Of a stretch of 51,550 nt of DNA, positions 5,354 to 36,326 are shown piece after piece. Below the pieces are notes generated by a model. The model had not been told where the DNA came from. It did not search any database and was given only the letters and a program-made list of their open reading frames with translations. Each line of letters starts with the position of its first letter. The first letter of the stretch is position 1. The stretch is from a virus, in the IMG/VR virus record IMGVR_UViG_3300025401_000005, positions 1 through 51,550 of that record. One strand, given 5' to 3'. A program made the position numbers and the translations under genes.

Positions 5354-6361
5354 ATGCTTTATTCTGTACAAGACATGCTTCAAATACTGCGACCGTATTG
5401 CGGTAACAGTGGTACTTGCAATCAAGTATTACAGCTTCAGTATCTTAATAAAGGAAGAAGTCTTCTTTGGAATAAAGTCGATATAGATAGCACTTGCGAG
5501 TATGTCTGCATCAAGTGCGTCAACAATGTTCTGACTCTTCCTAGCCTGTACAAGCAAGTAAGGTTGGCATGGATTGATGGAGTTCCTGTATCTCTTGGGA
5601 ACGAATGGTATCAGAGCATTCCCCAAGACTCATGGGGTGATGCCGCAAGCGGTGGATATGGAAATGGTTGGGGACAGGGATATGCTTGGAACGGAGGAAA
5701 CAAGAAGTTCATTGAGATTGGTGGAAAGCACATCACCTTCCAGAACTACGATTACGCACCCTATCAACTCGCCATAGAAGCCGAGTCTCCTACTGATGCG
5801 GGGGCGCAACTCACCTTTTTTGGCGAAGATGCATACGGAACGAGGATCAGCGAGACGATCACACTTGGCGTTGCTCCCGCATATACTTACTCGACCAACT
5901 TTTTCAAGACTGTTTTCCAAGTCACCAAGACCCAAACTACTGGCAGGGTAAGGTTGTATTCTTGGAATCCCGACAACAATGCTTTGATGTTGTTGTCCAT
6001 TTATCAACCACAGGATGTCAACCCATCCTTTAGGAAGTATGCCATCCAGGGCAGAGTAAGGGATTCGGTGATCCTGTACTGCAAGAAGAATTACCAAGAC
6101 TTGTTCAATCTGACTGACCAAGTGGAGTTTACGCCAGAGGCAATGATCTCTGCTGTGATGGCGGTTGTCTATCGTGAGAACAAAGGTAGTGACCAGCTTT
6201 ATGCTATCTCTCTCCAGAATGCAATATTTGAAGTCAACAGGGAAACCGCTGATAGGGAAGAACCTACTGGTAGTACGATTCGCCAGTTCTCAAACAACAT
6301 GATGCTCAATGCTCTGATCCCGACATATGTGTGGGATGATGGGGCTACATGGCCCTATTGA
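5354..6361 (+). CDS. Virion protein, probable head-tail connector or tail component
   Basis: A 335-residue protein with a Cys-containing N-terminal part (YCGNSGTC, CEYVCIKC within the first 55 residues), a Gly/Trp/Tyr-rich loop near residues 90-120 (GGYGNGWGQGYAWNGG) and a beta-rich remainder. It ends in a helix-like region. It lies between the large tail protein and the internal virion proteins, where podoviruses encode gatekeeper or adaptor proteins (for example T7 gp11 or P22 gp4). I see no diagnostic motif, so this function is positional. It begins 4 bases after the homing endonuclease. Confidence 0.5.
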   Translation: MLYSVQDMLQILRPYCGNSGTCNQVLQLQYLNKGRSLLWNKVDIDSTCEYVCIKCVNNVLTLPSLYKQVRLAWIDGVPVSLGNEWYQSIPQDSWGDAASGGYGNGWGQGYAWNGGNKKFIEIGGKHITFQNYDYAPYQLAIEAESPTDAGAQLTFFGEDAYGTRISETITLGVAPAYTYSTNFFKTVFQVTKTQTTGRVRLYSWNPDNNALMLLSIYQPQDVNPSFRKYAIQGRVRDSVILYCKKNYQDLFNLTDQVEFTPEAMISAVMAVVYRENKGSDQLYAISLQNAIFEVNRETADREEPTGSTIRQFSNNMMLNALIPTYVWDDGATWPY

Positions 6362-8988: not shown

Positions 8989-11900
8989 ATGCCATTTGAT
9001 ATCAACGGCGCAAGAAAAGCCGGTTATTCTGATGAGCAGATTTCTGAATTTCTCTCGTCGAACAACCCTAGCTTTGATGTGTCTGGAGCGCAAAAGGCTG
9101 GGTACACGCTGGATGATATAGCTGGAACTTTGGCACAACCAAAACAACAGCAAGATACGCAACTTCCCACGCCAGAGCAGACAGGTAAGGTTATTAATCT
9201 TCCTCCCATTCCAGAAATCACCCAAGCAAAGCCAATGGGTTTTATGGAACAAGCAGGAAGATTCATGTCTCCATTGCTTGGCCCTACGGAAGCGCAAAAA
9301 ATTGAAGAAGCTGTTCCTTTTGGTAAAACCGCAACAGGAGAAACCAAGTATGAATACAAGCCATTAGCAAGTCGATTAGAGCAGGAGCAGGGGATTTTTA
9401 CACCTTTTATTACCACTCCACAACTTCAGTCAACTCCAACAGATACAACCGCTGAAGCAATAGGAAAGGGAGCTTTCAATGTGGGAGCAGGGGTGTTGGG
9501 ATCTTTTATGAGTCCTGGTGGCGTGCTTCTTGGCGGGGTTCCAAAAGAATTAGAAAGTGCCGCTGAAGGAGTAAAGCAAATTGGCAGGGGGGCGGCTGGA
9601 TTGTTTGCTGGTCAAATGCTTGGAGCAATTCCTGGCCAAGTGCAGGAAGCAATTAATCCTAATTTGCCATTGCAGGAGAGAATTCAAGGAGGATTGGGTG
9701 CTGTTGTTGGATTGGGATTTGGAGGTCTTGCCGCCAAACACGCAATAATGGGAGAAAAACGTCCATCGCCCGAAAATATACCCGGCCCCGCTCCAGAGGT
9801 TGCTCCATCTACCGTCCCTGGCGTTGACTCAAAAGAAGCGGCAATTATTTCCAAAGCGGATGATTTGCATGAGGTTCCCTCGCCCCCCAGTGAGGTTACC
9901 GGCCCTACGATTAATATCCCTGCCGCAACTTCAGAGGAATTAAACCGCGCAAAGATTTCCGATCTTGTTGCCCAACAACTGGAGCATGAGGAAGGATCGC
10001 CAGAGCATACTGCCATTCAGCAACAGATTGATGCTTTACAGAAACCCGCTGAAAAAACTCAATTTCCTGATCTAAATGAATGGACTGAAAATCAGAAGCA
10101 ATATTTACAGCAATTAGAACAACAGAAACCCGCTGAAGAAATTTCTAATGCTCCTGAAAATGATCTAGATAAACAGCTTCAAGATCTTACTGATGAACAA
10201 AATAGGCTTGTCATAGATGAACTACCAAAATATCCGGAAGGAAGCATTGGAAGGAGACAAGTTCAAGACAGAATTGATGCAATACGCTTACAGCAAGTTG
10301 ATCTTAATAAACAAAGGGAACTTGTAATTTCAGAGGAAACCAAACCCGCTGAAGCCCCTGCTGAAGCAAAACCTAAAGAAGAAAATGCCGTTCAAGTCGA
10401 AAAAACAGGAGAAGTGGGCGTTCGCAACGCACCAACCGTGGGCGAAGGAGTGGGCGCAGAAAACAAACCAGAAGTCCCTGCCACAGAAGGTGAAGAAAAG
10501 CCCAAAGAAGAAGTAGCTCCAATAACAGAAAACAGCAGAACTACAAATCGTGATTATAGTGGCTACCCAAAAGGAACCCAAGTAGAAATTGTTTCAAGAA
10601 GCAAAGATCCTTTATCTACGGATGTAAAAATAAAGTATCCCGATGGCAAAATTGATTCTTTTCCAGAGGCGTGGCTTAAAAAACCAAAGACATCTGCAAC
10701 AAAGCCAAAAGAAACCCTTCCAAGTCTTGTTAAAACAAGGGGAAGAGATGCAGTAAATGATCTTCTTAATGAGTGGAACGAAGCTGAATTAAGTCCAGAT
10801 GGTAAATACATTTTAGGTGTTGTTGATCCAAGATCATCAATGAAGCCAGAGCGCATTCCTGTAAGGGAGTTCCTTGATTGGTTGCAAGATAAGGAATCAA
10901 CATCAAAAGTAGAAGTAGGGCCAGAAGCCGACGCTACTACCCCAACTATTGAGACTACTGGCGAAGGACAGTTATTCCGAGAGGATGCTCTTCCATTTAA
11001 TCTTGCTGGAGAAGAGTTGCCGCCAGAACCTGAAAAGCCAACTGTAGGCACAGAGGAAGAGCAACAGCTTCCTATGGGCGAAACTCCAAAGCCAACGGAG
11101 CCAGAGAAGCCATCAAACCCATACAAGGATCTTCTTAATAAAGTAGTAACCAGCATCAAGACTCATTCAGAATTTGCAAACGAAGCTGAAAAAGTAGCAA
11201 AGAAAACGCGCAATAAATTTCTCCAAGAATCGGTAGACAATTACCGGGACGCAATGGAAATCGGAGCGGACATGGAGTCAGAGTTCGAGAAGTTGCTTGC
11301 CGATGTTGAGCGTGAAGCCAATTACCATGATCAAGGAATAAAACCATCAGAGCGAGGATTGCCAAAAAGCAGATATAGAAAACCCCAATACTTTGGAGGC
11401 AAAAATGGAGATGAAGTAATTCGATATCTTCAAGAGAACAAAATCCTTCCAAAGAAAGCATGGGAAAAGAAAATTCGTGAAAGCGGTAGGCAAGTTACCG
11501 GCGGGGAATATGATGATATGCCAGAGATCCCCCAAAAGCATTCCAAGACTCTTTATGGAACTAATGGGGAAGGCCAGGTAATTGATGATGCATTGACAGG
11601 ATTACATAGTGCCGGCTTGGGATTGAATATAGAAACTGTTCCAGAACTTTGGCAGTACATCAAAGATGCTTCCGATAGTGCATTAAAAGAAGAAAAGGAA
11701 ACTACGGAACAATCCCGGATTGAAAAGAAAATTGAAACCGAAAGGGAGAAGATGCGGAAGTTGGCTCAAAAAGATCCAGAGAAATACGCTTCCGAAATGG
11801 ATCAAGACTTGAGGGACTACTTCAATGCTCGCCGTGGAGATACAGGAGGATTCCTTGAATTTCCAGATTCAGTAAAAGAAGCGGCAACCAATTTCGGCAA

Positions 11901-31886: not shown

Positions 31887-32099
31887 ATGAGCTTGAGATA
31901 CCCTCCAGAAGAGTTTACGAAGCCTAGCATCATGTTGTTGAGGAGTCTTGCTACGGAGCTTGGTGAAACGGCTAGTAAAGAGCCGGGAGGCTATGGTGGG
32001 GCAAAGATGGAGAGGAAGAGGTTGAGTAAGATTTTGAAGGAGCATATAAATGATCCTAGACTTTCTGATTGGGATAGGGATATGATTAGGGGACTATGA
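31887..32099 (+). CDS. Small basic protein of unknown function
   Basis: A 70-residue protein (MSLRYPPEEFTKPSIMLLRS), helical and basic, ending DWDRDMIRGL. A candidate promoter (TTGACA 31850) is so close that its mRNA would have almost no 5' leader. It overlaps the next gene by ATGA, so they form a pair. No family is recognised. Confidence 0.55.
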   Translation: MSLRYPPEEFTKPSIMLLRSLATELGETASKEPGGYGGAKMERKRLSKILKEHINDPRLSDWDRDMIRGL

Positions 32100-32458
32100 A
32101 CGAGGGAGAATTTCTTATTACGCTATTGAATTCGGCAACTGTTGCCCATGTGTTGCATTTGCAGAGTCGGAGTTATGCGGAGCATAAGGCGTTGCAGAGG
32201 TTTTATCAAGAGATGCCAGACCTGGTTGATTCTGTGATTGAGGCGTGGCAGGGAAGGCATGGGCAGTTGGTTGAGTACCCGGATCAATTGGTTGAGGTAA
32301 GTGATCACAAGGATTCGTTGGAGTATCTGATGTTTTTGAAGATACTTGTTGATGAGGATCGGTATGTGTTGGGCGAGGCTAGTGAGATCCAGAATCTTGT
32401 GGATGATGTTGCACAGTTGATTGATTCTACTATTTACAAGCTGACCTTCTTGAAGTAG
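32096..32458 (+). CDS. DUF5856-like protein
   Basis: A 120-residue helical protein matching a pattern found in many T4-like and other aquatic phages: FLITLLNSATVAHVLHLQSR then SYAEHKALQRFYQEMPDLVD, EAWQGRHG and a DSTIYKLTFL C-terminus. I recognise this as the DUF5856 type; its His/Glu spacing (HVLHLQ, E near 29, D/E near 42) resembles a four-helix, ferritin- or Dps-like bundle. The biochemical role is unknown. It overlaps the previous gene by four bases and precedes the structured non-coding region. Confidence 0.75.
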   Translation: MNEGEFLITLLNSATVAHVLHLQSRSYAEHKALQRFYQEMPDLVDSVIEAWQGRHGQLVEYPDQLVEVSDHKDSLEYLMFLKILVDEDRYVLGEASEIQNLVDDVAQLIDSTIYKLTFLK

Positions 32459-32499
32459 TTTTGGTTTGGAATCATTGCTGGTTGCATTGGAAATATCCG

Positions 32500-32760
32500 A
32501 TGGTGGGTCGCTCCCATAGGGTAGGAAACTACCGCCAGAGATGAGTCCTTACAGAATCGGAAGCGAACGATTCCAGCCCTTTACGGATCGGGGAATAGCC
32601 GTATAGCCAAAGGATAGGCGATAGGTCGCACAATAGCGGGCCGTCCTCAACAGTCCCGTATCGGGGAAACTCGATTCCACATGGTTCGCCCAGCGGGACT
32701 TCAATTTCATAATTATACCCCTCACGCCTCTGCCTGTGAGCAAGCGCACCAGAGGGGTTC
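32500..32760 (+). ncRNA. Candidate large structured RNA next to tRNA-Gln
   Basis: A 500-base gap without a credible gene holds several helices that make sense on the + strand. GGTAG-GAAA-CTACC (32520-32533) and ATCGGG-GAAA-CTCGAT (32660-32675) are GNRA-tetraloop hairpins, the second enclosed by AGTCCCG/CGGGACT (32652-32658 with 32694-32700). GAATCG/CGATTC (32554-32559 with 32568-32573) and CCTTTACGG/CCGT...AAAGG (32578-32586 with 32599-32613) add two more. ACCCCTC/GAGGGGT (32717-32723 with 32752-32758) closes the region before TTCTTATTT. Ornate RNAs such as GOLLD and ROOL also lie beside phage tRNAs, but I see no proof of membership. Confidence 0.5.
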
Positions 32761-32772
32761 TTATTTATAAAG

Positions 32773-32801
32773 AACTACTAAAATGTTTACAATTAGTAGT
32801 T
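32773..32801. repeat. Perfect 9-bp inverted repeat
   Basis: AACTACTAA (32773-32781) and TTAGTAGTT (32793-32801) form a perfect stem around an 11-base AT-rich loop, just after the structured RNA. It has no U-tract, so it may be an operator, a domain of the RNA or a tRNA-processing signal. Confidence 0.45.
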
Positions 32802-32849
32802 GGATTCCCTTCATGGGGGATTATCCCAGCATCCGTTAATCAAACCATG

Positions 32850-32888
32850 CTACACTTCCAGACTGCACGATAAACAAGACAAGTGTAG
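32850..32888. repeat. Perfect 8-bp inverted repeat
   Basis: CTACACTT (32850-32857) and AAGTGTAG (32881-32888) are perfect inverted repeats 23 bases apart, between the structured RNA and the tRNA. They could close a further helix of a longer RNA or be a protein-binding site. Confidence 0.4.
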
Positions 32889-32977
32889 TAGAACGAAAAT
32901 ATGTCTGTGAACTGCTACATCTGTCCTTTTAAGAAGGATAGGTTATTAAAAAAGCGTCCTTTTATAAAGCCTTTGAT

Positions 32978-33051
32978 TGGCTACCGATCATGGATTTGAA
33001 CCATGACTAGGGGAGTCAAAGTCCCCTGTGCTACCGTTACACCAATCGGTA
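32978..33051 (-). tRNA. tRNA-Gln(TTG)
   Basis: Read on the - strand: acceptor stem TACCGAT/ATCGGTA, D arm GTG-TAACGGTAG-CAC, anticodon stem GGGGA/TCCCC with loop CTTTGAC (anticodon TTG), T arm CATGG-TTCAAAT-CCATG, discriminator G and an encoded CCA at 32978-32980. All stems pair perfectly. It reads CAA and CAG glutamine codons; CAA is very common in the Gln-rich virion protein genes of this phage. Confidence 0.95.
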
Positions 33052-33316: not shown

Positions 33317-33373
33317 TTAGAAAATAAAAAAGGTATTGCAAGAAAATAAAAAATCTGCTAGTTGGAGATTTGT

Positions 33374-33574
33374 ATGAATGCACTATTCAATACATCAAAT
33401 GTACTTGAGAAAAGTTGCGATGAGTGCGGAGGCACGGGTCGTAACTGGTACGATGAGGGAAGTGGAGAACCATGCTGGAAGTGCCAAGGTAGCGGTCATA
33501 TCGTTACTGCGGAAGGGAAAGCAATACTCCAACTCCTTGCTCATCATCAAGGGCAATTGGTGCAATACACATAA
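33374..33574 (+). CDS. DnaJ-type zinc-knuckle protein
   Basis: A 66-residue protein starting MNALFNTSNV (an upstream TTG at 33362 is less likely). It has two CxxCxGxG knuckles, CDECGGTGRNW and CWKCQGSGHI, as in the DnaJ zinc-finger domain, here alone without a J domain. Such mini-proteins are common in phages, with unknown role. It is a lone + strand gene among - strand genes. Confidence 0.7.
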   Translation: MNALFNTSNVLEKSCDECGGTGRNWYDEGSGEPCWKCQGSGHIVTAEGKAILQLLAHHQGQLVQYT

Positions 33575-35357: not shown

Positions 35358-36326
35358 CTAAAAATCCAAATGCATAACCATACAGGATATGTCGGCCCCG
35401 GATTTGTCGGCTTCATCAATGTCACAGAAAATGATGGAATAGCCAAACTTGTCCATAGTTGTCAACATCCACTCCATTCCTTTTCGGTAATTTGGAAACT
35501 CTGGCTGGAACATACCAGACAACATGATCTTCTTGTTGCCTGGGATTTTGACCAGGTTGGTTGCTCCTGTAGCCATGACATCCTCTGGAACCACAATGAT
35601 GTTGGCAACCTTCTCAAGACGCTTGAATGACTCACGATCCATACCTCCCTTGCACACCATGAAGTTTTCTTTATCAATCACGAAGAGTGAGCAATCAAGA
35701 TGGTAAAGGGAATCGGATGTTTCACGGATTGGGATAATCTCAACACCCGTTTTTTTCATGATCCATTCATGAGCTTTCCAATCGCTGAATTTTCCATGAC
35801 CGCCGAAATACACCCCATCTTGCCATTTCTTGAGGTCGGCTTCTCCCTCAAATGGGTGTGGGGGCTGGATCACCGTATAGCCTCGTCCTTCAAAAAACTT
35901 TTTTGCTGGAGCTTCTTCCTGTGTCCTACCATCAGCGGAAAACTTGGCGAGAACAATGAATGGGTTTAGGGCTATGCCAATGTTGGCGGTGTAGTGTTGA
36001 TCCTGGCAATCTTTCTGCGGGGGGATTTCCAACACTTGAACATCAAGTGCGGTGATTTTTCTTTTGATCCGGGTATACTGGCGCATTGCCCTTTCCGTAT
36101 CCACCTTCTCGTTTTTCATGAACACATTGTTCGGAATGCGAGTGGAAAGATACTTTGGAGGACACATCACGAATTGCGGTTTCCTTTTGTAGAGTTCTCC
36201 TGCGGTATGGTTAGGTGCAATACCAGAAGAAGAGCCTTTGATAAGGGAGGCAACAGATGAGTCACCCACAAGTACAGATGGGATAGATGATCCATTCTTG
36301 TAATCTTGCGGGGTGAATTTCGCCAT
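35358..36326 (-). CDS. Amidinotransferase/DDAH-like pentein enzyme
   Basis: A 322-residue protein of the arginine deiminase/DDAH (pentein) fold. Diagnostic parts: MCPPKYLSTRIPN near 54-66, TANIGIAL near 113-120, HPFEGEADLKKW near 157-168, YHLDCSLFVI with His209, and ADISCMVMHLDF with the candidate catalytic Cys315 close to the C-terminus. The His, Asp/Glu and C-terminal Cys arrangement is that of a catalytic triad acting on guanidino groups. In a phage this may alter arginine or methylarginine metabolism or a modified guanidino compound; the true substrate is not known. It has its own promoter (36337-36365). Confidence 0.82.
   Translation of the reverse strand: MAKFTPQDYKNGSSIPSVLVGDSSVASLIKGSSSGIAPNHTAGELYKRKPQFVMCPPKYLSTRIPNNVFMKNEKVDTERAMRQYTRIKRKITALDVQVLEIPPQKDCQDQHYTANIGIALNPFIVLAKFSADGRTQEEAPAKKFFEGRGYTVIQPPHPFEGEADLKKWQDGVYFGGHGKFSDWKAHEWIMKKTGVEIIPIRETSDSLYHLDCSLFVIDKENFMVCKGGMDRESFKRLEKVANIIVVPEDVMATGATNLVKIPGNKKIMLSGMFQPEFPNYRKGMEWMLTTMDKFGYSIIFCDIDEADKSGADISCMVMHLDF

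Follow-up and report, generated by a model that had tools for sequence, protein, structure and literature searches.

A modular class of structured RNAs in a freshwater phage clade, with a possible decoy function

The IMG/VR virus record IMGVR_UViG_3300025401_000005 (positions 1 to 51,550; this whole stretch of 51,550 nt is called the window here) contains a gap between a DUF5856-like gene and a phage tRNA-Gln, which raises the question of what fills it. The initial annotation had proposed a single structured RNA of 520 nt on the + strand, lying just downstream of the DUF5856-like gene and antisense to the tRNA, and perhaps belonging to the GOLLD or ROOL classes or to a new one. We confirmed the placement and the lack of any credible gene in 32459-32977. 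The gap is two things, a mosaic RNA running from 32468 to about 32705-32765 and, in its 3' third, separate elements, and the mosaic RNA is about 235-300 nt long, not 520 nt. Its structure and its modularity leave us in very little doubt that it is a modular phage RNA of a genuine and previously undescribed class.

Structure of the RNA in the window

Folding energy agreed with the + strand orientation that had been proposed. The + strand of 32459-32975 folded with z = -4.15, better than every one of 100 shuffled controls, compared with z = -1.42 for the - strand of the same gap. When the gap was examined piecewise, the main signal lay in 32468-32549 (z = -5.1), and the other pieces were unremarkable (z = -2.2 for 32766-32975 and z = -0.4 for 32550-32705), so we relied on homologs for the rest of the gap. 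We note that whole relatives of the RNA had only modest energy scores (mean z of -1.46 sense and -0.97 antisense), and for this reason we used covariation rather than energy as proof.

Compensatory changes in homologous phage regions supported the helices of two modules, termed A and C (Table 1). Across 13 distinct homologs of module A, 95.4% of cells were paired and six pairs changed on both sides; double changes occupied 24 cells compared with 6.7 in shuffles, and the score was reached by none of 500 shuffles. Slid controls gave pairing of just 24-56%, and the covariance model scored 102 bits. A chance-hairpin reading of module A is ruled out by this covariation. Module C was similar, with 96% pairing in eight homologs, six double-changed pairs and a score reached by 0/500 shuffles. 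Both GAAA hairpins of the initial annotation, GGTAG-GAAA-CTACC at 32520-32533 and ATCGGG-GAAA-CTCGAT at 32660-32675, are correctly placed and genuine, as they are kept through compensatory changes, and the second is indeed enclosed by a perfect 7-bp helix. Module B, which is unexceptional by folding energy alone, contains a small covarying stem, GGTCGC/GCGGGCC, that becomes CAC/GTG in L061 and L101 (L numbers denote individual loci).

Table 1. Features in and around the gap (window coordinates)
Feature	Position	Strand	Description
DUF5856 gene	32096..32458	+	Pfam PF19174, E=4.2e-22; final codons overlap putative promoter
Putative promoter	32433..32461	+	TTTACA-17-TAGTTT, 6 nt before first RNA base; overlaps DUF5856 gene end
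Module A	32468..32549	+	Four helices; long P1 closes four-way junction with three hairpins
Module A P1	32468-32482/32534-32548	+	
Module A P2	32485-32491/32496-32502	+	
Module A P3	32503-32507/32513-32517	+	
Module A P4	32520-32524/32529-32533	+	GAAA loop
Module a2	32550..32577	+	Hairpin GAATCG-gaagcgaa-CGATTC; absent in L028/L030, L031, L034
Module B	32578..32651	+	TTACGGATCGGGG...GGGCCGTCCTCAAC
Module C	32652..32703	+	Outer helix 32652-32658/32694-32700; inner GAAA hairpin 32660-32665/32670-32675; conserved ATGGTTCGCCCAG
Hairpin G'	32717..32758	+	Possible degenerate abiF motif and/or 3' end hairpin; then TTCTTATTT
tRNA-Gln	32981-33051	-	Sole Rfam finding next to gap

The inverted repeats at 32773-32801 and 32850-32888, which had been counted as parts of the same RNA, exist at those positions and are instead separate elements repeated in the clade. 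Hairpins from 32773 on are also present in L004, a relative without modules A-a2-B-C, and we therefore assign them to separate elements. The palindrome AACTACTAAAAYGTTTACAATTAGTAGTT at 32773-32801 occurs once per locus in 22 clade loci, at differing places; it resembles an operator or a terminator and is distinct from the mosaic RNA. Since the RNA ends at least 200 nt before 32978, it is not antisense to the tRNA-Gln.

Two other genes of the window are recorded here as side observations. A small open reading frame (ORF) at 33371-33571 has a DnaJ-like CxxCxGxG zinc motif and matches Anti-TRAP (PF15777, E=3.5e-10), and several relatives show comparable ORFs downstream of their DUF5856 gene. At 35358-36326 lies a dimethylarginine dimethylaminohydrolase family protein (PF19420, E=9e-12), which is unusual for a phage.

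Module exchange across the clade

Relatives were collected from IMG/VR with two kinds of bait. The DUF5856 gene recovered 18 loci, and RNA patterns recovered 11 loci (exact A piece), 16 (C piece), 11 (B), 31 (relaxed A) and 77 (the 3' module F), many of them overlapping; the relatives described here are the contigs reachable by exact patterns, and many are fragments. About 110 loci carry such RNAs, and they form one freshwater phage clade, with 100 of 101 loci connected through shared flanking proteins and 15 clusters by flank nucleotide similarity. Two exact-pattern scans of 84,980 prokaryote species genomes for modules A and C returned nothing and so pointed to no cellular origin of the modules. 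Plasmids gave no match to such an RNA by pattern, and the one match among GenBank phages was a stretch of Acinetobacter Saclayvirus that resembles tRNA-Trp. The terminase and another large protein of the phage had no relative among 50,697 phages, and in the open-access literature we found no earlier account of phage RNAs that are mosaics in this way.

The general plan of these RNAs begins with a promoter that lies 6-7 nt ahead of the first module; exchangeable modules follow (A, a2, B, C, D, E, H, J, K, M and others), and F is often the last. The window has the order A-a2-B-C, as does L021. Other loci have A-C alone (L020), A-B-C (L028), A-a2-E-C-F (L012), A-E-C-F (L031), A-D-C-F (L034), A-K-F (L041) or A-abiF (L049), and further combinations include J-K-F, J-B-E-Q-K-F, M-D-F, M-H-F and P-H-F, among others. 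In total, 31 different seed strings were found among the loci, a count that is approximate because seeds were chosen by eye, and some strings are partial owing to contig ends or strict seeds. The cleanest exchange is at the window's own site, where abiF-H replaces A-a2-B-C in L004 and the borders are sharp; the same DUF5856 gene precedes abiF-H, and everything from 32712 on is kept at 93% identity.

In module F, which holds several different inner domains, a variable base pair is Watson-Crick in 40 of 40 distinct copies (A:U 19, U:A 16, G:C 4 and C:G 1). The variable pair of module K is likewise kept in six of six copies with three pair types, and in L096 an abiF hairpin is nested in the K slot that holds other hairpins in other phages.

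Promoter-like sequences stand at a fixed distance from these RNAs. Before A, J or M, 38 distinct contexts with varied upstream sequence have TTGaca-like and -10-like hexamers spaced by 16-17 nt, and the -10-like hexamer ends 6-7 nt before the first module base. The candidate promoter in the window has the same spacing; we note that it is weak by sequence, with 8/12 matches, lies in a coding end and is not reported by a stricter scan. Some mosaic RNA promoters lie within inverted repeats (L020 2275-2320 and L041 7660-7703; TTACAAA-N26-TTTGTAA; CAAGGAATCCTTG). Because several promoters are placed in this way, they may be regulated, and the arrangement suggests, for example, control by a repressor.

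Modules that resemble known RNAs

Some relatives carry a module that matches a known antitoxin RNA. AbiF is a HEPN toxin with the abiF RNA as its antitoxin, and in Clostridioides difficile the abiF RNA (RCd22) neutralises the toxin in trans through direct binding (PMC12373285). The Rfam abiF model (RF03085) scored at least 37 bits in 4 of 40 phage records (L049, 41.9; L004/L005, 43.2; L082, 40.9). A model built from the phage copies found 10 modules at 43-58 bits, all within mosaic RNA loci, with the next score in 623 kb at 14.3. Like abiF of the type III-like AbiF/Abi_2 toxin-antitoxin systems, the phage motif has an outer stem, AAGCC..., GCUCAAAC and compensatory changes, and the phage modules covary in their own right. 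Unlike those systems, the phage motif is usually single and one bead among unrelated ones, and no Abi_2 toxin gene (PF07751) was found in any of the 40 records, many of which are fragments.

The window itself has at most a possible degenerate abiF copy, because its hairpin scores little above noise. The Rfam abiF model gave 25.4 bits for 32718-32758, below the cut-off of 37, and the phage-built model gave 17.4 bits for 32717-32758 compared with noise of 14.3. The hairpin is kept at about 93% in L004, where a genuine abiF module lies upstream of it.

Pseudo-ToxI of phage PhiTE (PMC3475682) is an earlier case of a phage RNA imitating an antitoxin RNA. Like the mosaic RNAs, pseudo-ToxI is a phage non-coding RNA resembling a host antitoxin RNA and able to evolve by recombination; it consists of repeats of one motif, whereas here many unrelated structured modules are strung together and swapped. 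No module matched the ToxI family. By analogy with pseudo-ToxI, an orphan abiF copy in a phage would be the expected look of a counter-defence mimic.

A second module, J, resembles a tRNA. The anticodon loop of this 76-nt module, CUCCAAA, never varies and sits on a 7-bp stem that covaries; the T-arm is canonical and the CCA is encoded. ARAGORN calls the module tRNA-Trp, and the Infernal tRNA model gives it 16.3 bits (L066; cut-off 29) or no score. It stands first in many mosaic RNAs, under a promoter-like sequence of its own, and is absent from the window RNA. A tRNA call lay within 1 kb at 39 of 68 places, compared with 20% of random positions, and 16 of the 39 were J itself. Phage tRNAs answer tRNA-cutting defences (PMC11555353), and the tRNA-Trp-like start of some mosaic RNAs recalls them, although the anticodon stem of J is longer (7 bp) and J is fused to non-tRNA modules.

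Other tRNA-like pieces were also observed. In Acinetobacter phage Aci05 (L117 2984-3052), a stretch without annotation resembles tRNA-Trp and has an anticodon stem of 7 bp; it lies in a tRNA array with several more structured-looking gaps. In L037 (~10600-10680) and L022 (~5790-5880), tRNA-like 3' modules (CCGATTCGTCTA...TTCGATTCC...ATCGG) are fused to module B, and neither ARAGORN nor the Infernal tRNA model recognised them.

Possible functions of the mosaic RNAs

Because relatives swap modules and some of them carry an abiF antitoxin RNA, we suggest that the mosaic RNAs are decoys. A multi-part decoy RNA made during infection, with several targets among RNA-dependent or tRNA-cutting defences, is the best-supported explanation, and one that we hold with middling confidence. 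Transcription would proceed on the + strand from a sigma-70-like promoter at the end of the DUF5856 gene and would yield, in the window, a free-standing non-coding RNA from 32468 to ~32705 (possibly 32765) comprising A-a2-B-C and perhaps the degenerate abiF-like hairpin. Each variable module would show a shape bound by a host defence protein, whether that of an antitoxin RNA, of a tRNA or its anticodon arm, or of some other guide or effector RNA, and the toxin or nuclease would be held inactive by that binding. Stability, folding and termination may be the task of the modules that frame the RNA, A at its 5' end and C, K or F nearer its 3' end, and module exchange among phages would follow the defences of their hosts. 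By analogy with abiF and J, other modules may mimic further defence RNAs or tRNA parts.

The observations in support are the fold, covariation (in A, C, the abiF modules and J), modularity, the fixed promoter distance and the presence of abiF without a toxin gene in relatives. From these and the analogies above, we infer transcription, protein binding, an anti-defence effect and the partners of the window's modules. Several points weigh against a decoy function. The modules of the window have no proven partner, and the abiF-like hairpin there scores under the threshold. Modules A-F and K are unmatched in Rfam, so the interpretation rests on two modules of relatives. Many contigs are fragments seen through exact patterns, and Abi_2 could lie elsewhere in a genome.

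Among the alternatives, the one that survives best, although we consider it unlikely, is that the mosaic RNA serves as a structural element or scaffold in the manner of GOLLD and ROOL. It would then be expressed late in infection, next to tRNA genes, as an assembly of RNA alone that combines a conserved portion with a variable one. In GOLLD the 3' part is conserved and the 5' part variable, with a linker that at times holds tRNAs, and GOLLD and ROOL, like the mosaic RNAs, are structured phage RNAs near tRNA genes with no assigned function (PMC12286853). A non-coding RNA in a tRNA-bearing phage region, with a conserved end and a variable rest, recalls this pattern. However, sequence and fold differ: GOLLD, ROOL and group I introns gave no match in the region in a search of 4227 Rfam families at E up to 5, and modules A, B, C, D, E, F and K have no Rfam match. 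The newness of the class, one of the two options first raised, is therefore retained and membership of GOLLD or ROOL is not. A separate ROOL (RF03087) search of 16 records was empty, though its positive control was silent too. The mosaic RNAs are also much shorter (80-350 nt across the family, compared with >570) and combinatorial in content, and single modules are lost or gained, down to A and C in L020, a change that a fixed quaternary assembly would not survive.

We also rejected a group I intron, which had no Rfam match and would require an interrupted gene, whereas the RNA lies between complete genes. Every other Rfam family except tRNA, tRNA-like and abiF was likewise rejected for lack of a match to the modules.

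Also unlikely, and ranking next, is a small regulatory RNA or a sponge, pairing with RNAs of the host or the phage, in which the modules would act as stabilising hairpins and seed carriers. Phage small RNAs are frequent, and the mosaic RNAs have their own promoters, some in palindromes, and terminator-like 3' modules. Conservation, however, is found in helices with compensatory change and in the loops they enclose, not in one unpaired seed, and one would not expect entire domains to be exchangeable or a true abiF module to be among them.

We regard as improbable that the modules are accessories of tRNA operons, that is, remnants or processing aids for phage tRNAs (J, Met) that help their expression. 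The tRNA-Trp call for J, its first position in many RNAs and the frequent tRNA calls nearby fit such a role, but most combinations, including that of the window, have no tRNA, and the tRNA-Gln of the window is on the other strand. Chance hairpins, terminators or an insertion like a miniature inverted-repeat transposable element (MITE), with no RNA function, are very improbable despite the many short repeats in the gap, given the compensatory changes against every control (A, C), the fixed promoter distance and, by inspection, the absence of terminal repeats at module edges.

Within the decoy explanation, we tentatively propose a wider possibility for the clade, a combinatorial RNA arsenal in which one transcript carries, side by side, imitations of several RNAs used in defence (antitoxin RNAs, tRNA arms and perhaps guide RNAs). 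To our knowledge, known phage RNA counter-defences, such as antitoxin repeats and tRNAs, are single-purpose. If the proposal is true, the shuffling of unrelated domains, including a genuine antitoxin motif, would correspond, at the RNA level, to anti-defence gene islands. Each exchangeable module without a known partner would then mark an undiscovered RNA-binding bacterial defence, such that reading the modules would reveal these systems and the modules could be used as bait for new RNA-dependent defence proteins. It would thereby become possible to test what the ornate phage RNAs next to tRNA genes do.
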